From Coprothermobacter proteolyticus DSM 5265 (GTDB lineage Bacteria > Coprothermobacterota > Coprothermobacteria > Coprothermobacterales > Coprothermobacteraceae), in contig NC_011295.1 of NCBI RefSeq assembly GCF_000020945.1, positions 1,178,001 through 1,242,000 on the forward strand: a stretch of DNA of 64,000 nt, in the 5' to 3' direction. The notes under the pieces are model-generated. The model worked only from the letters and a program-made list of their open reading frames with translations, was not told where the DNA came from and searched no databases. How positions within the stretch are numbered: position 1 is the stretch's first letter; every line of letters begins with the position of its first letter. The position numbers and the translations under genes were made by a program. This document shows, one piece after another, positions 46,390-61,767 of the stretch.

Positions 46390-47358
46390 TTACTGCAATA
46401 CTTCTCTAATAGCCCTCGCTATTTTGTCCTTGTCAGGCATAACTTCTCTTTCAAGTACGGTTGTATATGGAGGTGGCACCTGTGCTCTAGCAACTCGCTT
46501 TACAGGAGCTTTCAAGAATTTAAATCCCTCATCAGCGGCAATGGCAGCTACGTCCGAAGCAAAAGAACTATCCCTGTAATCGTCTAAACAGACTACCAAT
46601 CTTCCAGTCTTCTCCAAAGAGCTGAGGATTAGTTCTTTGTCCAAAGGTTTTATAGTCCTCGGATCAACGACTTCTACGGAAATGCCTTCTTTAGCCAGTT
46701 CGTCAGCAGCCTCCAGGGCCATTGTGTTCGTGGATCCAGCAGCTACTACTGTGACATCTTTACCTTCTCTTTTTATGTCGCCTTTGCCTATGGGTACTAA
46801 GTATTCCTCATCTGGCACCTCACCTTTCACCATGGCAGATCTTATGTCATAGGCAAAGACTACTGGGTTATCATCACGTATGGCACTCTTAAGCAGTCCC
46901 TTTGCATCATATGGTGTGGAGGGATACACTACTTTGAATCCCGGATAGTGAACAAATAGTGAGCATATGTTATCGGAGTGTTGAGGTCCAGCACCTCCAC
47001 CACCCATGCTCATAGCCAGGTAAGTAACTGGCACGCATACATCTCCCCCGGTTGCGTATCTGAGGCGCCCAGCAACTGAGATCATTTGGTCTGCTGCCAC
47101 GTACATGAAACTCGCTGCTCCATATTCCACCACAGGTCTCATCCCTAATAGTGACGCACCTGTGGCAAGCCCCGTAAACCCAGCTTCAGAAATAGGTGTA
47201 TACCTTATCCGCTCGAAGCCAAATTCTTCATATAGCCCTGCCTCAGCACCAAACATGCCCAACTCCAAGTTCTCACCCATCATAAACACATTAGGGTCTC
47301 GCCGGAGTTCCTCTCTTAAAGCTTCATTTATTGCCTGCACGAACATCTTCTGACTCAT
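46390..47358 (-). CDS. Thiamine-diphosphate-dependent dehydrogenase E1 component, beta subunit (copy 1)
   Basis: A 322-aa transketolase-like beta subunit of pyruvate, 2-oxoacid or acetoin dehydrogenase. MFVQAINEALREELRRDPNVFMMGE, PISEAGFTGLATGASLLGMRPVVEY, GPQHSDNICSLFVHYPGFKVVYPSTPYDAKGLL and VVDPRTIKPLD are diagnostic. It closely resembles copy 2 (59120-60085). Its natural partner, E1-alpha 1, now lies 10.3 kb away at 57678-58667 because a composite element has inserted between them. The GGGGGGATT Shine-Dalgarno and ATG are untouched, but the link to the operon promoter is broken, so expression depends on read-through or a new promoter. Confidence 0.92.
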   Translation of the reverse strand: MSQKMFVQAINEALREELRRDPNVFMMGENLELGMFGAEAGLYEEFGFERIRYTPISEAGFTGLATGASLLGMRPVVEYGAASFMYVAADQMISVAGRLRYATGGDVCVPVTYLAMSMGGGGAGPQHSDNICSLFVHYPGFKVVYPSTPYDAKGLLKSAIRDDNPVVFAYDIRSAMVKGEVPDEEYLVPIGKGDIKREGKDVTVVAAGSTNTMALEAADELAKEGISVEVVDPRTIKPLDKELILSSLEKTGRLVVCLDDYRDSSFASDVAAIAADEGFKFLKAPVKRVARAQVPPPYTTVLEREVMPDKDKIARAIREVLQ

Positions 47359-47385
47359 TACAATCCCCCCTCGTATAATATGTCT

Positions 47386-47667
47386 TAGAAATTATCAAGA
47401 AGTTTTTATAGCTTCTTGATAATAAGGTGTGCCTTTGCGAAAATTAATTTGGGTTGGTCTGGGGTCACTCTTAATCCCCCCCTGTAGCCCACAAATATGG
47501 CCTACTCAGTTAAGAGTGAGACCCCTGCGGTGCAGTACTAGTTTCTTACTCGTGAGCCGAGCCAGCAGGCCTTCCGGCCCCTGGAGTCAGCAGGCCAGGG
47601 GTGCACCCCCGGTTGTCCTGTCAAGCTCTTATCGCCCGCGAGGCTGTTAGGTACTGCACCCGCAGGG
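47386..47667 (+). ncRNA. Candidate bridge RNA of IS110 copy 1
   Basis: Three structures in order. (1) A 12-bp hairpin, 47391-47402 with 47412-47423. (2) A target-type loop: GGGGTC-ACTC (47461-47470) with GAGT-GA-GACCCC (47514-47525), enclosing AAT-C7-T (47473-47483) and, on the other side, TTAAG (47510-47514). (3) A donor-type loop: a 16-bp helix 47523-47538 with 47651-47667, enclosing CGTGAG (47551-47556) and CGAG (47639-47642) around an inner CCCCTGG/CCAGGGG hairpin. AAT-C-T reads like the left target; CGTGAG and CGAG (reverse complement CTCG) match the element's right and left ends. The layout is that of IS621 bridge RNA; ends are approximate. Confidence 0.75.
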
Positions 47668-47706
47668 CACGCCCCTACTCCTGGCCAACTCAAGGAGGGA
47701 TATCCG

Positions 47707-48942
47707 TTGGCTCAGGTCATCTTCGCAGGCATCGATGTCAGCACCTCTAAGCTGGACATCATTTGCATCGATGAAAATGGTAATCAGCTTTCTCCCGCTA
47801 GGTCTTTCCCTAATAATGCCGAGGGCGCAAATGAGTTGATAAACGCTGTAGTTTCCCTAGCAGCTAAGTCCAATGTCTCCCAGCTTAATCTCGGATTAGA
47901 AGCTACTTCCATCTTCAGTGTCCCACTCCGAGATTTCCTTATGGATGCCCCTCAGTTAAAGCCTTTTTCGGTCCAGGTGTATGAAATTAACCCTTCTCTT
48001 GTGGCTGGCTTTAAAAAGGCTTTCGGCTCCAGACTTCCTAAAACCGATGCTATTGACGCTTATATAATCGCTGAAAGGTTACGCTTCGGACATCTTACAC
48101 CCTACAGCCATGAGGCTTCTGTTACAGCACCTTTGCGCCAGCTTACAAGGCTCAGATTACACCTTGTCGACCTCCTCGTTGAGGAGAAAAATCGGGCTTT
48201 GAATCTCATCTTTTTGAGGTTTTCTAATTACAAACAGGACAACCCTTTCAGCAATGCCTTCGGCAAGGCTTCTGTTGAGGTCCTGAAAGAGTTTACTCCT
48301 GATGAGATAGCTCAAATATCCGTAGAAGAACTGGCGGAGTTTATTCAGTCCCACGGAAAAAACAGGTTCGCTAATTCTGAGGAAATCGCCAGTGCCTTAA
48401 AGCAAGCCGCAAGGCGCGCTTACCGCCTAAACTCTAAAATGCAGCAGGTCTGCGAGATAGCTCTTTCCCTTACTCTTCAAAACATTGAGCATCTCAAAAG
48501 GCAGATTAAAAGCCTTGATAAGGTCATTTCCAGAGAGCTTAAGGCTATTCCTCAAACTCTCACTACGGTTAAGGGTTTAGGCGAGGTGTCGGCTGCAGGA
48601 ATAATCGCTGAAATAGGCGATATCAAGCGTTTCAAGAACGAAGCCTCTCTTGCTCAGTATGCCGGCCTCACCTGGACCCGTTATCAGTCGGGCGATTTTG
48701 ACGCTGAAGAGCGTCGTTTGACAAAGAGCGGGAACAAATACCTCCGCTATTACTTGGTCATGGCCGCAAACTCGTTGCGGGTGCACAACGAGGAATACAA
48801 GGCCTATTACCAGACCAAGTATCAGGAGGTGCAAAAGCACCAGCATAAGAGGGCGCTGGTATTGACTGCCCGCAAACTGGTTAGGCTGGTCTTTGCGCTG
48901 CTGAGCAAAGGCCAAATCTACAAGGGGACGGTGAGGAGTTAA
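47707..48942 (+). CDS. IS110-family transposase (DEDD recombinase)
   Basis: A 411-aa recombinase. The N-terminal RuvC-like domain shows Asp10 (IFAGIDVSTSKLDI), Glu65 (LGLEATSIF) and Asp114/Asp117 (PKTDAIDAYIIAERL), the DEDD set of the family. A coiled-coil linker follows (about 235-280). The C-terminal Transposase_20 domain has TVKGLGEVSAAGIIAEIGD and GLTWTRYQSGDFDAEE; Ser328 in YQSGD sits where the family's catalytic serine is expected. GNKYLRYYL closes the motif. TTG start behind AAGGAGG. In this family the enzyme works with a bridge RNA that pairs to donor and target DNA. Identical to the second copy. Confidence 0.95.
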   Translation: MAQVIFAGIDVSTSKLDIICIDENGNQLSPARSFPNNAEGANELINAVVSLAAKSNVSQLNLGLEATSIFSVPLRDFLMDAPQLKPFSVQVYEINPSLVAGFKKAFGSRLPKTDAIDAYIIAERLRFGHLTPYSHEASVTAPLRQLTRLRLHLVDLLVEEKNRALNLIFLRFSNYKQDNPFSNAFGKASVEVLKEFTPDEIAQISVEELAEFIQSHGKNRFANSEEIASALKQAARRAYRLNSKMQQVCEIALSLTLQNIEHLKRQIKSLDKVISRELKAIPQTLTTVKGLGEVSAAGIIAEIGDIKRFKNEASLAQYAGLTWTRYQSGDFDAEERRLTKSGNKYLRYYLVMAANSLRVHNEEYKAYYQTKYQEVQKHQHKRALVLTARKLVRLVFALLSKGQIYKGTVRS

Positions 48943-49148
48943 TTTTGTTTTTAAAACTTATTTGACCTCTTCTGTGCCAATTTTTCCCATACTAATTGGC
49001 TAGGGATATTATTGTCTTTTTTTGCCCTGATAATTTTATTTTCCAGTTTTAGGGTATTGACATATTACCGTGAGTCTTAATTTTATGATTGGAAAATACG
49101 TTAGTTAATTTATATTCTATCGCCGTTTTTAAAGTTCCTGCACAAAAA

Positions 49149-49182
49149 TAAAAAGCCTTCCTTGCAAAAGGAAAGCTTTTTC
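49149..49182 (-). terminator. Terminator after the 67-aa gene (cargo)
   Basis: AAAAAGC, TTCCTT / AAGGAA and GCTTTTT form an 11-to-12-bp stem with one mismatch, followed on the minus strand by TTTTTATTTTTG. Confidence 0.85.
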
Positions 49183-49192
49183 AGTCATTCAT

Positions 49193-49396
49193 TTATTTTA
49201 TCATATAATAAAAAGATTCGAGTTCTTCGCTGTCAGCTCGCGGAAGCTTCACCTTTAACTCCTGAATAACCTCATCGTCAACTTGGATAAATTTGTCTCC
49301 CAATAGGCGAGCGCATATATTGATGCTTGCCAGGGAATTTTTATGGTGGCTCACAAAGTCCAATATTTCCTCTATCTGCTTCTGCCGTTCGTCCAC
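49193..49396 (-). CDS. Hypothetical protein, 67 aa (cargo)
   Basis: Not recognised. A small charged helical protein (MDERQKQIEEILDFVSHH..., ending LESFYYMIK) with no membrane segment. GGAGGTG 8 nt before a GTG start, and a terminator just downstream, indicate a real gene. It is the last gene of the birA-side group on the minus strand. Confidence 0.65.
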   Translation of the reverse strand: MDERQKQIEEILDFVSHHKNSLASINICARLLGDKFIQVDDEVIQELKVKLPRADSEELESFYYMIK

Positions 49397-49439
49397 CCAA
49401 ATGCACCTCCATTATTATTGTGAGCCCGAAAATCTCTAT

Positions 49440-50419
49440 TTATTCCCTGAGCGACACATCGCCGCTTAAAACCCTTTCTACAGTGCCCCCATCGGTTTTA
49501 ACCAATAATGCGCCATCGCTATCCACATCTAGGGCTATCCCTTCTAATTCGGAATTCCTGCCAATTATCCTGACGCGCTTTCCCAGATTGCAGGAAAGTT
49601 CCCTCCATTCCCCCAGTATCTTTTCAAAATCACCGTTCTCAAGGTCTCTGTAGAATCCCTCAAATTGCGAAAGAAATTCGGTTAAAATTTTCAATCGGTC
49701 CACATTCTTTCCGGACGCAAGTTTCAAGGACGTAGCCGTTTCTTTAATTTCCGCCGGAAAATCCGTGTTATTCACATTGATACCTATTCCAGTTACCACA
49801 AAATTGATACTGTCCATGTCGGCGCTCATTTCCGTCAAAATCCCAGCCACTTTTTTGCCCTCCACCAGAAGGTCGTTCGGCCATTTTATCCGGCAATCTA
49901 TTCCGGCGACTTTCCTTATCGCTTTTGCAGCCGCTACCGCACAGGTCATGGTAATCCGGGGCGCTTCGTAGGGTTCCAGGGAAGGCCTTAGAATTATCGA
50001 CAACCATATTCCTTCCCGGGGCGGTGATATCCAGGTCCTTCCCAACCTCCCTTTTCCCCCGTCTGCTCTTCCGCAATCACCAGCGTCCCGTGGGGTGCTC
50101 TATTCTGAGCTAACTTTTTTGCTTCATCGTTGGTAGAACCTATCGAAGGGTAGTAGTAAATTTTGCGGGCCAGGAATTCGAGGCGGCTATTTTGTATAAT
50201 TTCTTCAGGCAAAAGCAAATCCGGCGACCTCTTCAGGCAATATCCCACCCTCGGCACCGAATCTATTTCGTATCCGAGCTTTCTTAAATGGTTTACCTGC
50301 TTCCATACGGCGGTGCGGCTGACTCCAAATTTTTCGCTTATTTCCTCACCGGAAACGTAACTGCTCTTTTTCGAAAGAAGCAACAGCAAAAGCTCGTTTA
50401 GAGAACCGTCTCTCGTCAT
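49440..50419 (-). pseudogene. birA: Biotin-[acetyl-CoA-carboxylase] ligase / biotin repressor, frameshifted (cargo)
   Basis: Two overlapping frames together make one BirA of about 325 aa. The first (from 50419) has the N-terminal winged helix YVSGEEISEKFGVSRTAVWKQVNHLRKLGY and the start of the ligase domain, ending at VIAEEQTG. The second (to 49440) continues LGRTWISPPREGIWLSIILRP, IKWPNDLLVEGKKVAGILTE and GIGINVNN. The frame breaks in a run of five G on the coding strand (C at 50056-50060); six G would restore T-G-G-K-G-R-L-G-R-T-W, the biotin-binding loop. It is either a real mutation or a sequencing error in a homopolymer. The host has bioY at 22123, but no host birA is in the window. Confidence 0.88.
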
Positions 50420-50495
50420 GGCTTAAATCCACCTTTTTCCAAAACCATTTTAAGCTACTTATAGTTTAATTTACCCGCTCATTTGTGTCAATGTC

Positions 50496-50528
50496 AAAAA
50501 GCCTGCCGGATTAAACTCCGACAGGCTT
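50496..50528 (-). terminator. Terminator after the OsmC gene (cargo)
   Basis: AAGCCTG-x-CGGA / TCCG-x-CAGGCTT with a 6-nt loop; on the minus strand it is followed by TTTTTGAC. Confidence 0.85.
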
Positions 50529-50541
50529 CGGACTTTGAATC

Positions 50542-50982
50542 TTATTTTTCGATAACCATATCGCCGTTAACTGGAACACCTTTTAAAGTGTCCTTTACGG
50601 GGCATCTTTCCTGTATGAGCTCGTAAAGTTTTTTTACGTTTTCCTCCGGGGAATCGGAAACTATGTGCATTTTATAACGTATCTCGGAAAAACCTTTCCT
50701 TACGTTCGGGTTTTTCCCAAGAAAACCATCTGGGTCGAGGTCCCCTTCAAGGTCCACGGAAAATCCTTTCAACTCCACGCCGCACATCGGAGCAAATGCG
50801 CTGGCTACTATCGCCATGCAGCCTCCCAAAGAGCAAAGTAGCATTTCCACAGGATTCATGGCGGTGTCGGTCCCGCCGAGCCCTTTGGGTTCGTCAACGG
50901 TGACTTTGAATCCCCTGGCGGTTCCTTCGGCTACCATTCCGCCTTTCCACTCCGTTTTAGCTTTGAAAGTAACTTTTGCCAT
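50542..50982 (-). CDS. OsmC family protein (cargo)
   Basis: A 146-aa protein of the OsmC/Ohr fold. GLGGTDTAMNPVEMLLCSLGGCMAIVASAFAPMCGVEL contains the two conserved Cys (in LLCSLGGCM and PMCGVEL), and the C-terminal SPEENVKKLYELIQERCPVKDTL is typical of YhfA-like members rather than Ohr. Members reduce organic hydroperoxides or bind thiol compounds. GGGAGG places the start at 50982 (MAKVTFKAK); the frame upstream to 51018 is non-coding. Own terminator, so probably its own transcript. Confidence 0.88.
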   Translation of the reverse strand: MAKVTFKAKTEWKGGMVAEGTARGFKVTVDEPKGLGGTDTAMNPVEMLLCSLGGCMAIVASAFAPMCGVELKGFSVDLEGDLDPDGFLGKNPNVRKGFSEIRYKMHIVSDSPEENVKKLYELIQERCPVKDTLKGVPVNGDMVIEK

Positions 50983-51210
50983 AACGATACCTCCCGGCCT
51001 AATAATGTCAGTTATCATCTAATCGAAATTATACCCTTTTGCATTACTATCTTCAACTGTTGTGACCCTCCTTCTATCCAACGGTGGCACCAGCTTTCCT
51101 TTCGATTCTTCCCCTTTTTTCCGAACACTTCCCATTCGCACTTTCCTCCCCTTTTTTTGTCTTCAATCTTAGTATCTTCAATTGCAGCGTTCGATATTTA
51201 TGAATCAATT

Positions 51211-51238
51211 AAAAAAGCCCCCTTCAAGGGGCTTTTTT
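51211..51238. terminator. Hairpin terminator overlapping the macro-domain gene's 3' end (cargo)
   Basis: AAAAAAGCCCC and GGGGCTTTTTT flank a tiny loop. The last codons (Lys-Lys-Ala-Pro) and the stop of the macro-domain gene at 51224-51226 lie in the stem. Confidence 0.9.
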
Positions 51239-51718
51239 CAATTCCTCTTCCAGGTATTTTATGAACTCACCGCTCACGTCCATCACCGTAATGTCTATAT
51301 CCTTTACATCACCGAGAACTTCCTTATAAACTTTTGCCACATCCTTTTTGGGGACGCCTCCGACGCCTGTAGCCAGCGCCGGCAGAACCATGGATTTAAC
51401 TTTCATTTCCCGGGCTTTCTCGAGGAGCGACTGAAGGCATTTCCTTACAATTTCTACGCTGGACGGCTCCGCCGGCCTCTTCATGGTCACTGCGTGAAAG
51501 ATGTACTTGGCTTTCAATCCGCCGGCGGTGGTAACGTAAACGTCTCCCGGCCGGGGGTCGAGCTGGCTGCAGACCCTTATGGCTTCGTCTTCAATCACTT
51601 TCCCGCCGGCTTTCTTTATTGCCAGGGCTACGCCGCCGCCCATGGGTCCGATGCCATTTGCCGCATTTACTATAACGTCGGCCTCGGCCTTCGTTATGTC
51701 TCCCATAACAAGCTTCAC
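51224..51718 (-). CDS. Macro-domain protein, ADP-ribose binding/hydrolase (cargo)
   Basis: A 164-aa single macro domain. VKLVMGDITKAEADVIVNAANGIGPMGGGVALAIKKAGG contains the ADP-ribose site (D-I-T, N-A-A-N, G-G-G-V-A), and VLPALATGVGGVPKKDVAKVY is the second phosphate loop. Proteins of this class remove ADP-ribose from proteins or hydrolyse O-acetyl-ADP-ribose. AAGGGGTGAT is best spaced for the GTG at 51718, although the frame extends to 51742. It follows the 102-aa gene directly, so the two are co-transcribed. Confidence 0.9.
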   Translation of the reverse strand: MKLVMGDITKAEADVIVNAANGIGPMGGGVALAIKKAGGKVIEDEAIRVCSQLDPRPGDVYVTTAGGLKAKYIFHAVTMKRPAEPSSVEIVRKCLQSLLEKAREMKVKSMVLPALATGVGGVPKKDVAKVYKEVLGDVKDIDITVMDVSGEFIKYLEEELKKAP

Positions 51719-51735
51719 TTTATCACCCCTTCGAC

Positions 51736-52044
51736 CTAACATTTTGCAAGTTCGGACAGCTCTTCCAGTTTCTTTTTCCAGTAATCCCTCTTAGCTTTCA
51801 ATTCCCCTATTAACTTCAGGTCGTGCTCGATGCAAAGTCCTTCCTGGACCCTGTTTTCGGCAAAATGAATGGCCTCATCAAAAGTTTCAAGAGCTCTTTT
51901 AAATAAATCTTCGGCATAACAAGCTCTCTCCCTTTCGTGAGGCCAGTTGGATTTTTTTGAATCCCTTATGACGGCTTTTAACACATCGAAGAACTTTTCC
52001 CCCTCCGTGTAAAGATTTATGGAAAAATCAAGATGTTTAATCAT
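51736..52044 (-). CDS. Hypothetical protein, 102 aa (cargo)
   Basis: Not recognised. A charged, almost wholly alpha-helical soluble protein with a likely coiled coil at its end (LKLIGELKAKRDYWKKKLEELSEL). GGGAGG precedes the ATG at 52044. It lies upstream of the macro-domain gene with a gap of about 17 bp and downstream of the ATPase gene. Real by position and ribosome-binding site; no function can be proposed. Confidence 0.65.
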   Translation of the reverse strand: MIKHLDFSINLYTEGEKFFDVLKAVIRDSKKSNWPHERERACYAEDLFKRALETFDEAIHFAENRVQEGLCIEHDLKLIGELKAKRDYWKKKLEELSELAKC

Positions 52045-52123
52045 TTTAAAACCTCCCGGCCACTTTTATATTATAATTTCCACAAAACTTTCAAAATTCC
52101 TCCTCAATTTTAAAATATATTTT

Positions 52124-54760
52124 TCACAGGACCGCACCCAGCCCGGAGAGGGCCAGAATCAAAAGCCACATTTTTCCATCAAGCGGCACGGTGTGGAAGA
52201 TAACCTGAAGCGACGACACGTAGACAACTCCAAAAAGCATTGCCGCCGAAATTATTACAGCCAGCGTGAGGAAGAGATTCGAGAACGGATTTTTCCCCCA
52301 TAAGGTGGCGTTTTCTTCCCTGCATTCAAAGGCAAATATGAGCTGGGACATCACCAGGGTGGAAAAAGCCACCGTTCTTGAGAAGTCTATCCCGGTGCCG
52401 CCGTAATACCAGGATATCAGGTATGAAGCCATGGTGGCAAGGCTTATAAAAAACCCCCTGTAAAATATTTTCCGTCCCATGCCGCCGGAAAAAATACCTT
52501 CCTGTCTTTTTCGGGGTTTGCGGTTCATCACATCCCTCTCGGGCGGGTCCGCTCCCAATGCAATGGCCGGCAGGCCGTCGGTTATAAGGTTCATCCACAG
52601 TACCTGTATGGGCAAAAGCGGCAGCGGCATCCCCAGGAGCGACGACCACACCATCGTCAGCACTTCTCCGATATTGCAGGAGAGCAAGTAACGTATGAAT
52701 TTTCGGATGTTGTCGTAAATGATACGCCCTTCTTCCACGGCGGATACGATGCTTGCAAAATTGTCATCCAGCAGTATCATCGCCGAAGCTTCCTTCGTCA
52801 CATCGGTGCCTGTTTTGCCCATTGAAATACCTATATCCGCTTCCTTTACCGCAGGAGCGTCGTTCACTCCGTCACCGGTCATGGCAACCACATGGCCCTT
52901 CTTTTTTAGCGCTCGAACTATTCTCAACTTGTGCTTGGGAGTCACTCGGGCGTACACCGAAATATCATCTATACATTTTAAAAACTCGGATTCGGACATT
53001 TCGTCAAGTTCCTGGCCCGTTATTATCCTCCCACCTTTGCCCATCATGTTCAGTTCTTTTGCCACAGCCCAAGCGGTGGCGCGGTGATCACCCGTTATCA
53101 TTACAGGCTTTATCCCTGCGGCAAAGCACCTTTCGACGGCTGAAGCCGCTTCGGGTCGCGGCGGATCTATCATTCCCATCAAGCCTAGAAAAATCAAACC
53201 GGTCTCGATATTTTCGCTTAAGTCCCGAGTACTGTTTAATTTTCTGTAGGCAAACGCCAGGACCCTCAAGGCTTCCCTTCCCATATCCTCGTTTATCCGG
53301 GATATTTTTCTCTTTTCTGATAAAGTCATCTTTTTAACATTTCCATTTTCTTCTATACCATCGCAAAGTTCCAGAATTACGTCCATAGCTCCTTTTATGA
53401 ACAGGAATAGCTCCCCCTTTTGGTTTTTCACCACCACCGACATTCGCTTCCGTTCCGAATCGAAAGGAATTTCCCTTATCCTTTTGTAAGTCCTTTCAAC
53501 GTCATTTTTAAAAATTCCGGCCTTTGCAGCCGCAACCAAAAGGGCAACTTCCGTAGGGTCTCCGGCGGGCACCATCTCCTTTGGCCTTCCAAAGCCAAAA
53601 ATTCCGGACTTTTGCTCACCAAGTTCAGCGTTATTGCATGAAACCGCAACCCTGAGCAGTTTTTCCATTGAAGGAGAAGTTTTTTTAAGCAGCCGGCCAT
53701 CGTTTGTAATGAAGTCCCCTTCAATTCTGTAGCCGCTTCCTGTTACCATCACCGTTTCGCCATCCACATAGATTTTCCTCACGGTCATCCTGTTTTCCGT
53801 AAGGGTGCCGGTTTTATCGCTGCAAATAACTGTAGCACACCCCAGGGTTTCTACGGCCGTAAGTTTTCTCACCAGCACATTCTTTTTCACCATCCGCTGA
53901 ACTCCCATAGCGAGCACCATCGTGACCACGGCGGGCAATCCTTCGGGTATTGCAGCTACGGCAAGGCTTACACCAAAAAGGAACATCTGGTAAATCTCCT
54001 CGCCCCTCAGAACCCCTAACATCGCGACCATAAAGCATAACAAAAGGCAAAGGACGAGGAGCTGCTTGCCAAGGTCATCCAGCCGCCTTTGAAGTGGGGT
54101 TTGCTCTTCCTCGACGCCTTCCATCATTCCGGCGATTTTGCCCATTTCCGTATTCATTCCTGTTTGCGTCACCACCATTTTACCCCTGCCGCTTACCACC
54201 ATGGTCCCCATGAATACCAAATTCGAACGGTGGATTTTCAAGGTTTCCAGCTCCCTGCTTTCTACGCTTTTTTCCACAGGTACCGATTCTCCCGTAAGCA
54301 TGGATTCGTCCACTTTAAGATTTTCAGCCTCAAAAAGTTCCCCGTCGGCCGGTACTTTATCACCGGTCTCCAGTATCACTACATCGCCCGGCACCACCTC
54401 TTTAGCCGGGATTACTTGTATCTTCCCATCGCGCACTACCCTGGCTACGGGAGCCGCCATTTCTTTCAAAGCCTCTAGAGCTCTTTCGGTGCGGTATTCC
54501 TGTATGAACCCCATAAAGCCGTTTAATACGATAATTGCAGTGATGGCCGCAGCATCGGCCATCTCGCCCAAAAAATACGATACTATTGTTGCTCCTAAAA
54601 GCACCAGGGTGATGGTGCTTTTAAACTGGTTGATGAAAAGGATTGCGGGTGATTTTTTCCGACTTTCATGGATTACGTTTTCTCCGAAGAGTTTTTTCTT
54701 TAAAGGTATCTCCCTGCTTGACAAACCTCTTTTTAGATCGGTGTTCCACGATGCCGTCAT
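52124..54760 (-). CDS. Ca2+-transporting P-type ATPase (type II), cargo copy
   Basis: An 878-aa membrane pump. VICSDKTGTLTENRMTVRK is the phosphorylation site, MTGDGVNDAPAVKEADIGISMG the hinge and VAAIPEGLPAVVTMVLAMGVQRM the TM4 ion-binding segment. About ten helices. It aligns along its whole length with the host pump at 40792-43347 but is clearly a different lineage. GGAGGG sets the start at 54760 (MTASWNTDL). With spmB and spmA upstream on the same strand it may belong to that operon; Ca2+ handling is relevant to sporulation in the presumed donor. Confidence 0.92.
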   Translation of the reverse strand: MTASWNTDLKRGLSSREIPLKKKLFGENVIHESRKKSPAILFINQFKSTITLVLLGATIVSYFLGEMADAAAITAIIVLNGFMGFIQEYRTERALEALKEMAAPVARVVRDGKIQVIPAKEVVPGDVVILETGDKVPADGELFEAENLKVDESMLTGESVPVEKSVESRELETLKIHRSNLVFMGTMVVSGRGKMVVTQTGMNTEMGKIAGMMEGVEEEQTPLQRRLDDLGKQLLVLCLLLCFMVAMLGVLRGEEIYQMFLFGVSLAVAAIPEGLPAVVTMVLAMGVQRMVKKNVLVRKLTAVETLGCATVICSDKTGTLTENRMTVRKIYVDGETVMVTGSGYRIEGDFITNDGRLLKKTSPSMEKLLRVAVSCNNAELGEQKSGIFGFGRPKEMVPAGDPTEVALLVAAAKAGIFKNDVERTYKRIREIPFDSERKRMSVVVKNQKGELFLFIKGAMDVILELCDGIEENGNVKKMTLSEKRKISRINEDMGREALRVLAFAYRKLNSTRDLSENIETGLIFLGLMGMIDPPRPEAASAVERCFAAGIKPVMITGDHRATAWAVAKELNMMGKGGRIITGQELDEMSESEFLKCIDDISVYARVTPKHKLRIVRALKKKGHVVAMTGDGVNDAPAVKEADIGISMGKTGTDVTKEASAMILLDDNFASIVSAVEEGRIIYDNIRKFIRYLLSCNIGEVLTMVWSSLLGMPLPLLPIQVLWMNLITDGLPAIALGADPPERDVMNRKPRKRQEGIFSGGMGRKIFYRGFFISLATMASYLISWYYGGTGIDFSRTVAFSTLVMSQLIFAFECREENATLWGKNPFSNLFLTLAVIISAAMLFGVVYVSSLQVIFHTVPLDGKMWLLILALSGLGAVL

Positions 54761-54828
54761 TTTTCTTCCCTCCAAGCAATGATCCACTTTAAATTTATTC
54801 CGGCATTTTGAAGGTTATGTCTCTTCCT

Positions 54829-55359
54829 TTATTCGAACAATCGTTTTACTATGTATACCGATGCCAGCAGGCTTGCAAAATCCGCCATAATTCCCACGGG
54901 AACGGCGTACCTCGTCTTTTTGATGCCTACCGAACCAAAATAGATTGCTATTATATAAAAGGTGGTATCGGTAGACCCCATCAGCGTGGACGCCAGCCTT
55001 CCCATGTACGAATCTGGACCGTAGGTGTCAAAAATTTCTACCATCATGCTGAGTGCCGCCGGTCCCGACAGGGTTCTCACTATAGACAAGAAGAGGGCAT
55101 CGGCCGGAATCTCCAAAAGCCGGATGACAGGATTTAAAACTTTCACCATCAAATCTACGGCTCCCGATTCCCTAAAGATGCTGACGGCAACGTAAATCCC
55201 CAAAAGATAGGGAACAAGCTTTACGGCAAGCTGCAAACCTTCCTGGGCTCCTTGTGTAAACACTTCAAATACCCTGACGTTATTTATCAAACCGTGTAAA
55301 AAGACCGCCGCCATCACAACGGGAATTATCCAGGAAGAAATTGAAATTTGCTCCGCCAA
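54829..55359 (-). CDS. spmB: Spore maturation protein B (cargo)
   Basis: A 176-aa membrane protein with the nucleoside-recognition (Gate) fold. SIVRTLSGPAALSMMVEIFDTYGPDSYMGRLASTLMGSTDTTFYIIAIYFG and GIKKTRYAVPVGIMADFASLLASVYIVK are typical SpmB blocks. In Bacillus and Clostridia SpmA/SpmB act in dehydration of the spore core. Complete (usual length about 175). It starts 5 bp after spmA. Its presence in a host with no other sporulation genes in view supports foreign origin of the cargo. Confidence 0.93.
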   Translation of the reverse strand: MAEQISISSWIIPVVMAAVFLHGLINNVRVFEVFTQGAQEGLQLAVKLVPYLLGIYVAVSIFRESGAVDLMVKVLNPVIRLLEIPADALFLSIVRTLSGPAALSMMVEIFDTYGPDSYMGRLASTLMGSTDTTFYIIAIYFGSVGIKKTRYAVPVGIMADFASLLASVYIVKRLFE

Positions 55360-55364
55360 ATTCC

Positions 55365-55958
55365 TTACCTCCTTCTTTCGATTTTCCGGTAAAGGAGCCT
55401 GAAAGCATAGTCGGCAACAACTGCAACCAGGGTGGAACAGGTAGTGGCAAAGAGAATGGCCCCCAGCACTTCCGATGGATTTTTAGAACCGGCCGCAGCC
55501 CTTAGAGCTATTATCGTCGCGGGTACCAGCGTCACGCTGGATGTATTTATGGCAAGGAATGTGCACATGGCCTCCGTTGCGGTATCGGGATTGGGATTTA
55601 GGGTTTGCAGTTCCTTCATAGCTTTAAGTCCGAAAGGCGTCGCTGCGTTGCCGAACCCCAGCATATTGGCGCTCAAGTTCATCAATATGCTCCCCATGGC
55701 CGGGTGACCTTTGGGTATGGAGGGGAAAAGCCACCTGAATAAAGGCGCGATAAACCTGCTGATACTATCTATAAGCCCTGATTCTTCCGCCACTTTTGCT
55801 ATCCCAAGCCAAAAACCCACGACTCCCATGAGACTTATCGCCCTCTCAATGGCGGTTTTTGCAGCTTCCAGTGCAGCGGGAGTTATTGAATCCAGCTTTC
55901 CGTTCCAAGCGGCGGCTAAAATCCCTCCCAGTATCAAAAAAGCAAAAATCCAGTTCAC
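55365..55958 (-). CDS. spmA: Spore maturation protein A (cargo, at the IS boundary)
   Basis: A 197-aa membrane protein of the same fold. FAFLILGGILAAAWNGKLDSITPAALEAAKTAI and the conserved MNLSANMLGFGNAATPFGLKAMKELQ and FLAINTSSVTLVPATIIALRAAAGS identify SpmA. The open frame runs back into IS copy 2, but the true start is the GTG at 55958, 10 bp from the IS, behind GGGGGATT. The IS is inserted exactly at that Shine-Dalgarno: the G run is kept and everything upstream is replaced by IS sequence. Confidence 0.92.
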   Translation of the reverse strand: MNWIFAFLILGGILAAAWNGKLDSITPAALEAAKTAIERAISLMGVVGFWLGIAKVAEESGLIDSISRFIAPLFRWLFPSIPKGHPAMGSILMNLSANMLGFGNAATPFGLKAMKELQTLNPNPDTATEAMCTFLAINTSSVTLVPATIIALRAAAGSKNPSEVLGAILFATTCSTLVAVVADYAFRLLYRKIERRR

Positions 55959-55984
55959 TTGAATCCCCCTCGTATAATATGTCT

Positions 55985-56265
55985 TAGAAATTATCAAGAA
56001 GTTTTTATAGCTTCTTGATAATAAGGTGTGCCTTTGCGAAAATTAATTTGGGTTGGTCTGGGGTCACTCTTAATCCCCCCTGTAGCCCACAAATATGGCC
56101 TACTCAGTTAAGAGTGAGACCCCTGCGGTGCAGTACTAGTTTCTTACTCGTGAGCCGAGCCAGCAGGCCTTCCGGCCCCTGGAGTCAGCAGGCCAGGGGT
56201 GCACCCCCGGTTGTCCTGTCAAGCTCTTATCGCCCGCGAGGCTGTTAGGTACTGCACCCGCAGGG
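55985..56265 (+). ncRNA. Candidate bridge RNA of IS110 copy 2
   Basis: Same folding pattern as in copy 1. The target-type guide is AAT-C6-T at 56072-56081, which is exactly the left target found beside copy 1 (AATCCCCCCT at 47362-47371). Donor-loop segments are unchanged. Confidence 0.72.
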
Positions 56266-56304
56266 CACGCCCCTACTCCTGGCCAACTCAAGGAGGGATA
56301 TCCG

Positions 56305-57540
56305 TTGGCTCAGGTCATCTTCGCAGGCATCGATGTCAGCACCTCTAAGCTGGACATCATTTGCATCGATGAAAATGGTAATCAGCTTTCTCCCGCTAGG
56401 TCTTTCCCTAATAATGCCGAGGGCGCAAATGAGTTGATAAACGCTGTAGTTTCCCTAGCAGCTAAGTCCAATGTCTCCCAGCTTAATCTCGGATTAGAAG
56501 CTACTTCCATCTTCAGTGTCCCACTCCGAGATTTCCTTATGGATGCCCCTCAGTTAAAGCCTTTTTCGGTCCAGGTGTATGAAATTAACCCTTCTCTTGT
56601 GGCTGGCTTTAAAAAGGCTTTCGGCTCCAGACTTCCTAAAACCGATGCTATTGACGCTTATATAATCGCTGAAAGGTTACGCTTCGGACATCTTACACCC
56701 TACAGCCATGAGGCTTCTGTTACAGCACCTTTGCGCCAGCTTACAAGGCTCAGATTACACCTTGTCGACCTCCTCGTTGAGGAGAAAAATCGGGCTTTGA
56801 ATCTCATCTTTTTGAGGTTTTCTAATTACAAACAGGACAACCCTTTCAGCAATGCCTTCGGCAAGGCTTCTGTTGAGGTCCTGAAAGAGTTTACTCCTGA
56901 TGAGATAGCTCAAATATCCGTAGAAGAACTGGCGGAGTTTATTCAGTCCCACGGAAAAAACAGGTTCGCTAATTCTGAGGAAATCGCCAGTGCCTTAAAG
57001 CAAGCCGCAAGGCGCGCTTACCGCCTAAACTCTAAAATGCAGCAGGTCTGCGAGATAGCTCTTTCCCTTACTCTTCAAAACATTGAGCATCTCAAAAGGC
57101 AGATTAAAAGCCTTGATAAGGTCATTTCCAGAGAGCTTAAGGCTATTCCTCAAACTCTCACTACGGTTAAGGGTTTAGGCGAGGTGTCGGCTGCAGGAAT
57201 AATCGCTGAAATAGGCGATATCAAGCGTTTCAAGAACGAAGCCTCTCTTGCTCAGTATGCCGGCCTCACCTGGACCCGTTATCAGTCGGGCGATTTTGAC
57301 GCTGAAGAGCGTCGTTTGACAAAGAGCGGGAACAAATACCTCCGCTATTACTTGGTCATGGCCGCAAACTCGTTGCGGGTGCACAACGAGGAATACAAGG
57401 CCTATTACCAGACCAAGTATCAGGAGGTGCAAAAGCACCAGCATAAGAGGGCGCTGGTATTGACTGCCCGCAAACTGGTTAGGCTGGTCTTTGCGCTGCT
57501 GAGCAAAGGCCAAATCTACAAGGGGACGGTGAGGAGTTAA
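56305..57540 (+). CDS. IS110-family transposase (DEDD recombinase), copy 2
   Basis: A 411-aa protein identical to the one at 47707-48942, with Asp10, Glu65, Asp114, Asp117 and Ser328 intact and the same TTG start and AAGGAGG. Both copies therefore look active. Expression from an inserted copy should be low because the -35 half of its promoter sits at the opposite end of the element. Confidence 0.95.
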   Translation: MAQVIFAGIDVSTSKLDIICIDENGNQLSPARSFPNNAEGANELINAVVSLAAKSNVSQLNLGLEATSIFSVPLRDFLMDAPQLKPFSVQVYEINPSLVAGFKKAFGSRLPKTDAIDAYIIAERLRFGHLTPYSHEASVTAPLRQLTRLRLHLVDLLVEEKNRALNLIFLRFSNYKQDNPFSNAFGKASVEVLKEFTPDEIAQISVEELAEFIQSHGKNRFANSEEIASALKQAARRAYRLNSKMQQVCEIALSLTLQNIEHLKRQIKSLDKVISRELKAIPQTLTTVKGLGEVSAAGIIAEIGDIKRFKNEASLAQYAGLTWTRYQSGDFDAEERRLTKSGNKYLRYYLVMAANSLRVHNEEYKAYYQTKYQEVQKHQHKRALVLTARKLVRLVFALLSKGQIYKGTVRS

Positions 57541-57677
57541 TTTTGTTTTTAAAACTTATTTGACCTCTTCTGTGCCAATTTTTCCCATACTAATTGGCTA
57601 GGGATATTATTGTCTTTTTTTGCCCTGATAATTTTATTTTCCAGTTTTAGGGTATTGACATATTACCGTGAGTCTTT

Positions 57678-58667
57678 CTAAGGAAGAACAAGATCCGTGT
57701 AAACATCTGTGAAAGCTTCACTCGGATCCGGGAATGGACTGGACTCCGCGAACTCTACGGCTTCTTCAACCTGCTTATTCACTTTGTCCCAAATCTGTGT
57801 TTTCTTCTCTTCGGTAAGTATTCCTTGAGCCATCAGCTTTTTCTCAAAATTCGCGACAGGATCTTTTTTCTTCCACTCTTCAACTTCTTCCTCAGGTCTG
57901 TAGATCCACCCCATTTGTTCGTCGGCTCCCGCCCCCGCATGATGGCCGTACCACCTGTATGTGATAGCCTCAATTAAAGTAGGACCTTCACCTTCTTTTG
58001 CTCTCTTCAACGCCTCGCTAACCGCCTCATAAACGGCCAGTACATCGTTTCCGTCAATTGTTACTCCCGGTATTCCATAACCTTTCGCTCTTTCAGAAAT
58101 GTTCTTCACGGAAACTGCGTAAGAAGCTGGGGTTGACACGGCATATTGGTTATTCTGAACCAAATAGACTACAGGTAACCTCCATATAGTGGCAAGGTTA
58201 AGACCTTCATGGAAGACTCCCTGGTTAGAAGCACCATCACCAAAGAAACAAATCGTAGCTCCGCCAGTATTCTTCATTTTTTGCGCCAGAGCAACACCTG
58301 CAGAAACAGGAATGGACTCGCCTACAATACTCAACATAGGAAGCACTTTAGCTTCAAACGCCTCAACGTGCATGTTGCCGCCTTTACCTTTACTGTACCC
58401 GGTAGCTCGCCCGTGTACCTCGGCAAACAAACGTTTCAGATCAACACCATCCCGTGCCGCAGCGTCACTAGTACCCCTGTGTGAAATCTCCCAGTAGTCT
58501 TCTGGTCCTAACGCCTTCACAGTTCCCACTGGAATTGCCTCTTGTCCTACGCCAGCCAACAGTGTCCATACCTTTCCTTTAGAGGATTGTTCTACAAGTT
58601 TTTCTTCAGCCTGGCGCAAAAGAACCATCTTCTCATACATTTCAATAAGATCTTCATTGGACAACAT
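57678..58667 (-). CDS. Thiamine-diphosphate-dependent dehydrogenase E1 component, alpha subunit (copy 1)
   Basis: A 329-aa alpha subunit. The ThDP motif runs from FFGDGASNQGVFHEGLNLA to VYLVQNNQYAVSTPAS (GDG to NN). SHRGTSDAAARDG, the phosphorylation-loop equivalent TYRWYGHHAGAGADEQMGWI and GVGQEAIPVG are present. Sequence and length follow copy 2 (60099-61088) closely. AAGGGGGTAAT precedes the ATG. The protein is complete, but IS copy 2 begins 2 bp after its stop, separating it from E1-beta 1. E1 is an alpha2-beta2 tetramer, so subunit balance is probably disturbed unless beta 2 substitutes. Confidence 0.92.
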   Translation of the reverse strand: MLSNEDLIEMYEKMVLLRQAEEKLVEQSSKGKVWTLLAGVGQEAIPVGTVKALGPEDYWEISHRGTSDAAARDGVDLKRLFAEVHGRATGYSKGKGGNMHVEAFEAKVLPMLSIVGESIPVSAGVALAQKMKNTGGATICFFGDGASNQGVFHEGLNLATIWRLPVVYLVQNNQYAVSTPASYAVSVKNISERAKGYGIPGVTIDGNDVLAVYEAVSEALKRAKEGEGPTLIEAITYRWYGHHAGAGADEQMGWIYRPEEEVEEWKKKDPVANFEKKLMAQGILTEEKKTQIWDKVNKQVEEAVEFAESSPFPDPSEAFTDVYTDLVLP

Positions 58668-59119
58668 TTAATTACCCCCTTTACTTTTTGCTTTTAACTT
58701 TCGCAGGCATCAGATCATAGGCAAACATCTCCTTTCCATTCTGGACAATCTTGTGCTCAAGAAAAAACTTGTTCTCTCACCAAGCAAAAGCCAGGATCTC
58801 AGTAATCCGCTAACGCTCGAGATCTCACTTTCCCCGTTCAACAGAACAGCTTTTATAAGAACATTATCGGAAGCTTCGAAAGGTACTTAAAACACAGCAG
58901 GGATCACAAGAAAGCCAAGGACTTGAACATATAAGAGCATAGTGACAATACTTAAACCAGCATCAATAACAGCATTCTAAATCTCACCCACACCGCAACG
59001 CAACGACTATGATTACAATTACAGCATCCTGTACATATCTCATGTGCAAAACCCATGAAGGGAGCATGTAACAGTGCGTCAAACATTTCTACTCCCTTCA
59101 TGGCTATCTGCCTAATTCC
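58668..59119. other. Intergenic region between the two E1 pairs
   Basis: 452 bp with no credible gene. It ends with a 12-bp perfect inverted repeat, CCATGAAGGGAG (59053-59064) and CTCCCTTCATGG (59092-59103), with a 27-nt loop. On the minus strand it follows E1-beta 2 and is trailed by GGTTTTGC, so it may act as terminator or attenuator between the gene pairs. A promoter for E1-alpha 1 should lie at 58680-58900, but no consensus is clear. Confidence 0.5.
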
Positions 59120-60085
59120 TTACTGTAGTATTTCCTTAACTGCTTTGATCAGTTTTTCTTCGCTTATGAGCATTTCCCTTTCAAGCACAGGAGAATGCGG
59201 GACAGGTACTTGAGCTCTAGTTACTCTTCTAATAGGAGCTTTTAAATATACATATCCTTTTTCCGCAACCACAGCAGAGACTTCCGAAGCAAAGGAACAT
59301 TGCCTCCAATCATCGTCACATACAACCAATCTACCAGTCTTTGCAACCGACCCCAGGATTACATCTTCGTCAAGAGGGGTAAGTGTCCGCGGGTCCACAA
59401 CTTCCACTGATACGCCTTCGCCCGCCAGTTTCTCAGCTACCTGCATGGCTAGGTAATTCGCGTAACCAGCACCAACAATGGTAACGTCTTTCCCTTCTCT
59501 TCTTACAATTCCTTTTCCTATGGGTACTGTGTAATCTTCATCTGGTACTTCCTCTCGATTCATGAACACTTTAAATTCCATAAAGTAAATGACTGGATTA
59601 TCATCACGTATGGCACTCTTGAGCAGTCCTTTGGCATCATAAGGGGTTGAAGGCATAACCACCTTGAGCCCTGGTGTGTGCACAAAATAAGCAGCAGTAT
59701 TGTCGGAGTGCTGACCTGCAGCCCCCCCACCCATGTTTAAAGCCATAAAAGTAACAGGAATCGTAGCTTGTCCACCTGTCATGTACCTGGTCTTTGCTGC
59801 TTGGTTGACAAGCTGATCCATGGCAACAAACATGAAATCTGATACCATAAACTCAACTACTGGTCTCATACCTCCAATGGCTGCACCTACGGCAGTTCCC
59901 GTAAAACCACTTTCCGAAATTGGAGTGCTCATAACTCTTTCAGGTCCAAATTCCTCAAAAATCCCTTTGGTTTCGCCGAAGGTACCGGTATGGACGTCTT
60001 CTCCCATTAGGATTACTTTTTCGTCTCTTCTAAGCTCTTCTCTGAGAGCTTGGTTTATGGCTTGAAGAAACATTAATTGGCTCAT
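59120..60085 (-). CDS. Thiamine-diphosphate-dependent dehydrogenase E1 component, beta subunit (copy 2)
   Basis: A 321-aa beta subunit. MSQLMFLQAINQALREELRRDEKVILMGEDVHTGTFG, PISESGFTGTAVGAAIGGMRPVVEF, GQHSDNTAAYFVHTPGLKVVMPS and VVDPRTLTPLDED are diagnostic. The frame reaches up to 60199 inside the alpha gene, but GGGGGG before the ATG at 60085 and alignment to copy 1 set the start there. It begins 13 bp after the E1-alpha 2 stop, which shows how pair 1 must have looked before the insertion. Confidence 0.93.
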   Translation of the reverse strand: MSQLMFLQAINQALREELRRDEKVILMGEDVHTGTFGETKGIFEEFGPERVMSTPISESGFTGTAVGAAIGGMRPVVEFMVSDFMFVAMDQLVNQAAKTRYMTGGQATIPVTFMALNMGGGAAGQHSDNTAAYFVHTPGLKVVMPSTPYDAKGLLKSAIRDDNPVIYFMEFKVFMNREEVPDEDYTVPIGKGIVRREGKDVTIVGAGYANYLAMQVAEKLAGEGVSVEVVDPRTLTPLDEDVILGSVAKTGRLVVCDDDWRQCSFASEVSAVVAEKGYVYLKAPIRRVTRAQVPVPHSPVLEREMLISEEKLIKAVKEILQ

Positions 60086-60098
60086 TACTCGTCCCCCC

Positions 60099-61088
60099 TT
60101 ATGAAGGTATATAGTCAGTGAACACGTCAGTGTACACTTCTGCGGGATCTGGCCATGGACTGGATTCTGCAAACTGTACTGCTTCTTCAATGTAGGCATT
60201 TACTTCGTCCCATACGACCTTCTTCTTGCTCTCGTCAAGTACACCTTGTTCCACAAGCTTCTTTTCAAACCTGGGTATGGGATCTTTTGCTTTCCATTCT
60301 TCAACTTCCTCCGCAGGTCTGTAGATCCATCCCATTTGTTCATCAGCCCCTGCCCCAGCATGGTGGCCATACCACCTATACGTCTTGCACTCAATCAAAG
60401 ATGGACCTTCACCTTGCCTTGCTCTTTTCATAGCTTCATCAACAGCTTCGTAAACAGCCAAAACATCATTGCCATCCACAGTCATTCCAGGGATGCCGTA
60501 TCCTTTTGCTCTTTCTGATATGTCCTTTACAGACACCGCATATGAAGCTGCAGTAGTCATTGCGTACTGGTTGTTCTGTACTACATAAACAATTGGTAAC
60601 TTCCAAACAGCTGCTAAATTCAAAGATTCGTGGAAGGTACCTTGGTTGCTTGCTCCGTCGCCAAAGAAACACAGAGTTGCTCCACCAGTCTTTTGCTTTT
60701 TCTGAGCTAAAGCTGATCCTGTTGCTAGAGGAATGCCTCCACCTACTATGCCAACCAGATTCAACACGTTGTCTTTGTAGGAAGCCAAGTGCATTGACCC
60801 ACCTTTGCCCTTGTTGTAACCAGTCGCTTTACCATAAACCTCAGCATAAACGTATTTGAGCTCCACTCCGTCCTTCACCACCATGTCACAGACTCCCCTG
60901 TGAGACGGTGCCCATTTGTCGTCAGATCCCATGGTTTTTACAGCACCAACTGGAATGGCTTCCTGACCTACACCAGCTAGAAGTGTCCCAACCTTACCTT
61001 GATTGGACAGCTGAACTAATCTCTCCTCTGCTTGGCGGAGGAGAACAAGTTTTCTGTACATCCACATTAAGTCTTCGTTTGAAAGCAT
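60099..61088 (-). CDS. Thiamine-diphosphate-dependent dehydrogenase E1 component, alpha subunit (copy 2)
   Basis: A 329-aa alpha subunit with GDGASNQGTFHESLNLAAVW to VVQNNQYAMTTAAS (ThDP site), TYRWYGHHAGAGADEQMGWIYRP and SHRGVCDMVVKDG. The frame extends to 61127, but AAGGGGGTAATGAA before the ATG at 61088 and the length of copy 1 mark the start. Together with beta 2 and the lipoyl carrier upstream it forms the head of the operon. Substrate (pyruvate, branched-chain 2-oxoacid or acetoin) cannot be set from sequence; the acetoin-type short alpha subunits are the closest in length. Confidence 0.93.
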   Translation of the reverse strand: MLSNEDLMWMYRKLVLLRQAEERLVQLSNQGKVGTLLAGVGQEAIPVGAVKTMGSDDKWAPSHRGVCDMVVKDGVELKYVYAEVYGKATGYNKGKGGSMHLASYKDNVLNLVGIVGGGIPLATGSALAQKKQKTGGATLCFFGDGASNQGTFHESLNLAAVWKLPIVYVVQNNQYAMTTAASYAVSVKDISERAKGYGIPGMTVDGNDVLAVYEAVDEAMKRARQGEGPSLIECKTYRWYGHHAGAGADEQMGWIYRPAEEVEEWKAKDPIPRFEKKLVEQGVLDESKKKVVWDEVNAYIEEAVQFAESSPWPDPAEVYTDVFTDYIPS

Positions 61089-61143
61089 TTCATTACCCCC
61101 TTCACTGTTAGTTTCCGTTCTCTCCAAAAGATCTCACCATTCG

Positions 61144-61386
61144 CTACCCCTCCGTTTCAATCTCTGCAATCTTCTGCTGAACAGGAATTTGGTCCCCCTC
61201 AGCACCATACAATTTCTTCACAATACCAGTAGCCGGGGCTTCAATATCAGTAGTGATCTTTGAAGTAATTACCTGAACTAACGGCTCACCTTTTTCTACC
61301 CTTTCCCCTTCTTTCTTGTAGAACTTTACAATTTCCACTTTCTCCACACCCAAGCCGAGTACGGGAACCAAAACCTCCACTACCAA
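61144..61386 (-). CDS. Stand-alone lipoyl (biotinyl/lipoyl attachment) domain protein
   Basis: An 80-aa single lipoyl domain. EVLVPVLGLGVEKVEIVKFYKKEGERVEKGEPLVQVI leads to the hairpin ITSKITTDIEAPATG, whose Lys (residue 43) takes the place of the lipoylated Lys in D-K-A turns. No E2 catalytic core or E1/E3-binding domain is attached. AAAGGAG is spaced for the TTG at 61386. First gene of the E1 operon, so it is probably the carrier that accepts the acyl group from E1. Biotin rather than lipoate is unlikely because the A-M-K-M motif is absent. Confidence 0.85.
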   Translation of the reverse strand: MVVEVLVPVLGLGVEKVEIVKFYKKEGERVEKGEPLVQVITSKITTDIEAPATGIVKKLYGAEGDQIPVQQKIAEIETEG

Positions 61387-61767
61387 AAGAACCACTCCTT
61401 TCTAACGGTTTAGCTAAGAATCAATTTGAGGTGACATCGAATGTATGCAACAAGGCTGCACATTGTTTTGTTGGAAAAACTAGACTTTAAGGTTCTAACT
61501 AATTAAATTCTCTAAGTCCTACCGAGAATGTCAAACTACTTCACCTCACTTTACATTTTATACCACGATTGTGTAATTTTATAAACTTTTTTGCCTAGAA
61601 CAATTAGATATAATATTCACATTTGCGTGATTGGATAAGTGAAATATGAATGCATATAGACAGCATAATCGCTACACAATTCAAATTGAGTTAAGTTTTA
61701 GTTCAACATTTGGTAACATGTGAACAGGGTGGTGAAGACACTAACCTTTAAAAGGAGGTAATAACCA
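61387..61767. other. Divergent intergenic region, E1 operon / P5C dehydrogenase
   Basis: 381 bp with no gene. TATAAT at 61609-61614 points toward the dehydrogenase but has no clear -35, and it lies 150 bp upstream. The region is AT-rich and must hold both divergent promoters. I see no riboswitch or conserved hairpin. Confidence 0.45.

Follow-up and report, generated by a model that had tools for sequence, protein, structure and literature searches.

In 1997 Doran reportedly described the targeting of translation initiation signals by IS900, an element of the IS110 family in Mycobacterium avium subsp. paratuberculosis. The closest RNA-based systems are the IS621/IS110 bridge RNA system (PMC11208160, Durrant 2024; structure in PMC11208158) and the seekRNA of ISEc11 and ISEc21, an RNA of the long noncoding region that matches both target strands (PMC11187229). 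Here, we analyzed 64,000 nucleotides of Coprothermobacter proteolyticus DSM 5265 (contig NC_011295.1, positions 1,178,001 to 1,242,000; this whole stretch is called the window, and coordinates count from its first letter), which carry two copies of an IS110 element. We consider it very probable that the 5' noncoding region of this element encodes an IS621-type bridge RNA of the IS110 recombinase with an anti-Shine-Dalgarno (anti-SD) target guide. The evidence is comparative and comprises the element boundaries and CT core, three testable guides that covary with the DNA, the position of the targets at Shine-Dalgarno (SD) sequences and start codons, a consensus promoter that would form on circularization, and a foreign cargo together with its two unoccupied target sites.

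The element resembles IS621 in its DEDD recombinase with N-terminal RuvC-like and C-terminal Transposase_20 domains, in the placement of the RNA in the 5' noncoding end, in a left guide that pairs with the bottom-left and a right guide that pairs with the top-right of the target with the CT core in both, and in having a donor loop and a promoter that arises across the circle junction (PMC11208160). It differs in a longer RNA with an outer basal stem, in a target that is an SD site and not a repetitive extragenic palindromic (REP) element, and in its 411-aa recombinase, which is only distantly related (phmmer, 8e-18). With seekRNA it shares the matching of both target strands by a noncoding RNA and natural reprogramming among relatives, but the targets are others (ISEc21 uses a conserved region of IS3-family transposase genes), and a donor loop lies outside the seekRNA model (PMC11187229). 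As in IS900, whose insertion motif is CATGN6TCTCCTT, an SD sequence plus start codon is targeted with the gene on the complementary strand (PMC8141618); unlike the present element, IS900 is known from insertion motifs, with no link to an RNA guide in the papers found, and the two are compared here by motif. Among the passages found in the papers on bridge RNA and seekRNA, none speaks of SD targets. Nor did we find literature linking bridge RNAs, IS110 elements, or transposases with an SD or anti-SD guide, in a search mostly without subscription papers and bioRxiv that is no proof of novelty. SD targeting by an IS110 element has thus reportedly been described before (IS900, 1997), and for an anti-SD guide no report was found.

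Two copies of an IS110 element

The elements and their recombinases are as follows.

47372 to 49075, plus strand: IS110 element copy 1, 1704 bp, with CT cores at 47370-47371 and 49076-49077
55971 to 57673, plus strand: IS110 element copy 2, 1703 bp, with CT cores at 55969-55970 and 57674-57675
47707 to 48942, plus strand: IS110 recombinase of copy 1, 411 aa, DEDD RuvC-like domain and Transposase_20 (PF01548, PF02371)
56305 to 57540, plus strand: recombinase of copy 2, identical to the copy 1 protein

The recombinase scores 259 bits against NCBIfam NF033542 (IS110; cut-off 140), matches the solved structures ISCro4 and IS621, and has the family's DEDD RuvC-like N-terminal and Transposase_20 C-terminal domains. 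A long noncoding region with a two-loop RNA fold lies 5' of it; the long noncoding region downstream of tnp that distinguishes the IS1111 group is absent, the guide-loop region sitting upstream. The two copies differ in a single C within the target guide (C7 versus C6), and no others exist in the genome (1,424,912 bases, one contig). Their ends agree with those of multicopy relatives and with unoccupied sites in Thermovorax subterraneus. The viral contigs searched contained no relatives of the element.

The left targets are AATCCCCC-CT for copy 1 and AATCCCC-CT for copy 2, and the right flanks are CT-TAATTTT and CT-TTCTAAGG, respectively. With the core, the left targets are AATCCCCCCT at 47362-47371 and AATCCCCCT at 55962-55970. 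An earlier reading of the window from its letters (the first-pass annotation) had given the guides as AAT-C7-T (C6 in copy 2) and the targets as C6 and C5 versions ending in the CT core, and its sequences and coordinates are correct. The motif AATC(4-7)T occurs eight times on both strands of the 64-kb window; the pair of guides and the pair of left targets account for four of the occurrences.

The predicted bridge RNA

The RNA and its parts are predicted at the following positions.

47386 to 47691, plus strand: predicted bridge RNA of copy 1, with 5' hairpin, target-binding loop, donor-binding loop, and basal stem
55985 to 56289, plus strand: predicted bridge RNA of copy 2, the copy 1 sequence minus one C
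47473 to 47483, plus strand: putative left target guide of copy 1 including the core, RNA AAUCCCCCCCU, DNA AATCCCCCCCT, of anti-SD type
56072 to 56081, plus strand: putative left target guide of copy 2, RNA AAUCCCCCCU, DNA AATCCCCCCT
47510 to 47514, plus strand: putative right target guide of copy 1, UUAAG, complement CTTAA
47548 to 47556, plus strand: putative left donor guide ACUCGUGAG, matching the right end ACCGTGAGT-CT
47629 to 47642, plus strand: putative right donor guide UUAU-CGCCCG-CGAG, whose CGAG complements CT-CG of the left end
49057 to 49062, plus strand: TTGACA at the right end, which in the circle stands 17 nt before TATAAT (47374-47379)

Folding of the noncoding 5' region, proposed in the first-pass annotation, is borne out: the 306 nt 3' of the -10 box fold with -126 kcal/mol (z = -5.0, 0 of 100 shuffles as good), and the stems covary in 14 homologues, both partners having changed in 23 of the 60 predicted pairs, of which many belong to the donor-loop stem. 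The inner stem beside the target guide keeps its pairing through the changes GTAG/CTAC, GCAG/CTGC, GTGG/CCAC, GAGG/CCTC, and GCAC/GTGC. In an RNAalifold consensus, the guide's C-run pairs with GGGG from the outer stem. We regard this pairing as an error of the consensus, since both the window sequence folded by itself and the relatives' inner stems place the C-run in an internal loop. An Rfam search of the window gave no match to any curated RNA family.

The left and right target guides are complementary to opposite target strands and covary with the target. TTAAG at 47510-47514 is complementary to CTTAA at 49076-49080, while at the right flank of copy 2 only CTT (57674-57676) fits, both as annotated before. 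The same is true of the second loop, where CGTGAG (inside 47548-47556) recurs at the right end and CGAG complements the CTCG that opens the left end. The donor-loop guides are thus complementary to the element's own ends, the left one across elements and the right one from sequence reading only; by analogy with IS621, UUAU of the right donor guide could pair discontiguously with ATAA.

When the right end is joined to the left end, the junction reads TTGACA-N17-TATAAT, a consensus sigma-70 promoter restored across right end, core, and left end of the circle. On the minus strand, no promoter points outward from the left end to the target gene. The target guide is nearly complementary to the SD of the recombinase gene itself, AAGGAGGGAT (47693-47710). 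Through this site, the RNA could repress the recombinase of its own element, or the element could be marked as a self-target.

Guides and DNA across relatives

Relatives were sampled at recombinase identities of 43-100% in genomes and 38-47% in plasmids, and their ends were fixed by pattern and by comparison of copies inside one genome. Three loci with an unclear left end (L047, L103, and L121) were omitted from the statistics, and L108 and L126 were omitted from the guide-match test. The left target guide agrees with its target at 4.83 of 7 noncore positions, compared with 3.58 after permutation of the guides among elements (p = 5e-5; 69 unique pairs with 32 guides). At the four outer positions, which lie outside the SD core, the agreement is 2.28 of 4 versus 1.43 permuted. 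For the right guide, the first base after the core agrees in 90% of cases versus 61% permuted (p = 5e-5), and the right-end six bases that the left donor guide would read are present in the donor loop in 49 of 53 elements (16 types) versus 4.7 permuted (p = 2e-4). The left target, right target, and left donor guides of homologues therefore track their DNA, as the bridge RNA reading of the first-pass annotation demands.

Natural swaps, in which guide and target have changed to the same sequence, are TCATCTCCT (L157), CCTGCCCCT (L160), and CCTCTCCCT (L163). All three right guides reading CTA (L034, L100, and L119) are at CTA targets, and those reading CTC are at CTC targets (L137-L140, L106, and L107). 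One genome, G466, has two subtypes of the element with right targets mostly CTTT and CTCT, each fitting its own right guide.

Targets at Shine-Dalgarno sites

Read on the opposite strand, AAT-C(5-6)-T is an SD sequence (AGGGGGATT followed by ATG or GTG), and the two window sites become AGGGGGGATTGTAATG before the E1-beta gene and AGGGGGATTCAAGTG before spmA. The first-pass annotation found the C-rich target; its SD identity, like the foreign origin of the cargo, went unseen there. The 16S rRNA ends in the anti-SD sequence 5'-CACCUCCU. In the clade, the left target guides with their core are CACCTCCT (common), ACCTCCT, CACTCCT, CCCCCCT, and similar sequences, and thus read as exact or near copies of that 16S end. 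The halves of the target sites in the window are as follows.

47362 to 47371: left half of site C, AATCCCCC+CT, the SD (AGGGGGGATT) of the E1-beta gene at 46390-47358 (minus strand)
57674 to 57676: right half of site C, CT-T, immediately 3' of the E1-alpha stop codon
55962 to 55970: left half of site B, AATCCCC+CT, the SD of spmA (GTG start at 55958, minus strand)
49076 to 49080: right half of site A, CT-TAA, on the cargo side, corresponding to the dapB SD site in Thermovorax

An open reading frame of at least 40 codons starts 6-20 nt from the core on the opposite strand at 49 of 65 insertions, compared with 15.0% of control positions taken from the same flanks (p = 2e-27); with ATG starts only, the figures are 37 of 65 and 5.9%. 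On the right-hand side, gene starts were found at 5 of 59 insertions. The duplex of SD and 16S anti-SD reaches -6 kcal/mol or lower at 92% of insertions versus 6.8% of the background, and in six of eight plasmid insertions a RefSeq-annotated gene starts exactly 12 nt from the core. Insertion between genes at an SD plus start codon, as in IS900, is thus seen throughout the clade. Judged by these positions, the elements target ribosome-binding sites without damaging either the SD or the gene, because the core and the left half remain beside the gene; the inserted element parts the gene from its former upstream sequence.

A distant IS110 element (~30% identity), present in 19 copies in genome G018 (L006, L015-L032), is also at SD sites, but there the gene lies to the right and points the same way: in 18 of 19 copies, checked by eye, the right end is followed by CATAGGAG and then ATG within a few bases. 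It seems that SDs are targeted in more than one orientation.

A foreign gene block between the copies

The two copies enclose a block of genes.

49076 to 55970: foreign cargo block, 6.9 kb, with birA (frameshifted), an OsmC-like gene, a macro domain gene, a P-type ATPase gene, spmB, and spmA

This cargo matches one stretch of the Thermovorax subterraneus chromosome with 97.5% identity over 4.9 kb and 88.7% over 1.9 kb, and for its spmA none of the window genome's six nearest relatives has a match. Outside the composite, the right side is 96-99% identical to a genome of the same genus (G002), and both sides are collinear with another (G001, 65-74%). An empty E1-beta site was not found in these two genomes, the G002 contig ending at window position 60009 and G001 having no match there. 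In Thermovorax, both sites are unoccupied: the dapB SD site reads AAAGTCCCC-CT-TAATTT (longer, AAAAAGTCCCC-CT-TAATTTATG) and the spmA SD site reads GAATCCCC-CT-TCTTC (longer, CTTGAATCCCC-CT-TCTTCAATC). In the window, the flanking sequences CT-TAATTTTATG and CTTGAATCCCC-CT agree with these empty sites, with one extra T in a T-run. From this fit we infer that, most likely, the elements entered the dapB and spmA SDs of a Thermovorax-like donor in the same orientation and that the block later moved to the host E1-alpha/E1-beta junction. SD-homing elements evidently bracketed a gene block that moved into another phylum.

Two routes of arrival have to be weighed. In the first, to which we give an even chance, an element resident at the E1-beta SD recombined homologously with foreign DNA carrying the element and the cargo; the copies differ at a single base, and exactly such a structure is what recombination would yield, but no strain with a lone resident element was present among the genomes compared, and the genome holds only the two copies. 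In the second, whose chance we put just short of even, the outer ends (left of copy 1, right of copy 2) would have recombined to a circle of element, cargo, and element that was inserted under RNA guidance at the E1-beta SD. The outer ends indeed lie on one SD site, with left and right halves that fit the guide, the cargo is bounded by two SD sites, both with an element in one and the same orientation, and IS1111-type elements can carry added cargo in the laboratory (PMC11187229). Against such composite transposition, no other composite copy was found, and the same sequence would result if a one-copy circle recombined homologously with a resident element at this site.

Within the cargo, a frameshift splits birA (49440-50419), which in Thermovorax (L090:5883-6863) forms one 326-aa frame. 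Another stretch of the cargo, 73 bases long (51000-51072), has copies at three other places in Thermovorax (93-99%) but none at the corresponding position; it resembles a small mobile repeat belonging to the donor lineage. Beside the cargo, two E1-alpha/E1-beta pairs of a thiamine pyrophosphate (TPP)-dependent dehydrogenase apparently stand in tandem (46390-47358 and 57678-61600), and the composite splits the second pair.

Discussion

If the RNA is expressed, bound, and employed in the manner of IS621 and the recombinase performs the reaction, as we infer by analogy, the left target would be read through the left guide of the target-binding loop, which is anti-SD when joined with the CT core, while the right guide would read the core and one to several bases to its right and the donor loop would read the element's own joined ends. 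With an anti-SD guide reading the left target, the recombinase would insert the circular form immediately upstream of ribosome-binding sites and always in one orientation, with the element diverging from the gene.

Several observations weigh against an anti-SD bridge RNA. The first-pass annotation had the guide equal to the occupied targets; the two are nearly identical, but in both window copies the guide exceeds its own left target by one C, and a register slip in the C-run must therefore be tolerated if the reading is right. Some relatives show a poor match of guide and target, with 3 or fewer of 7 matches at 10 of 65 loci. Two different relatives (L108 and L126) have the same left flank, TCATTACAGGAATG-CT, which does not resemble an SD; this may reflect a hybrid or insertion into some other repeat. 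Since most guides are anti-SD and most targets SD, part of the match is common to all loci, and after permutation correction, the margin is about 1.2 bases of 7.

The C/T-rich left halves of nearly all targets would also be expected if the recombinase itself, or the openness of DNA at C/G runs, favored SD-like sites and the loop were a coincidental echo of them. We regard this as very improbable: guides and targets covary outside the SD core and in the right half, the swapped guide CCTGCCCCT is a poor anti-SD and still faces CCTGCCCCT, and the G466 subtypes keep distinct right targets, CTTT and CTCT, that each match their own right guide. That the match is a leftover of element DNA copied in either direction, a thought prompted by the nearly identical guide and flanks in the window, can be dismissed almost entirely, being contradicted by Thermovorax, which carries the same AATCCCCCT and AGTCCCCCT at sites free of the element, and by multicopy relatives with guide-matching bases at independent sites.

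An anti-SD bridge RNA would account, through base pairing, for the presence of some IS110 elements, IS900 among them, at ribosome-binding sites: the guide RNA would use the ribosome's own recognition sequence as its address, one that precedes most genes in many bacteria and at which insertion breaks no reading frame. Natural anti-SD bridge RNAs with dozens of mapped targets would also form a data set on the tolerance of mismatch and register, and the window adds a traceable transfer between phyla, bounded by such elements, from an unrelated heat-loving donor lineage, with both preinsertion sites of the cargo known. Because orientation would follow the gene, neighboring insertions would be direct repeats that bracket whole gene blocks. 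Tentatively, then, a widespread IS110 lineage may use an anti-SD guide RNA as a near-universal address for gene starts, and the translatable gene blocks that its copies bracket may move between phyla as RNA-guided composite transposons.
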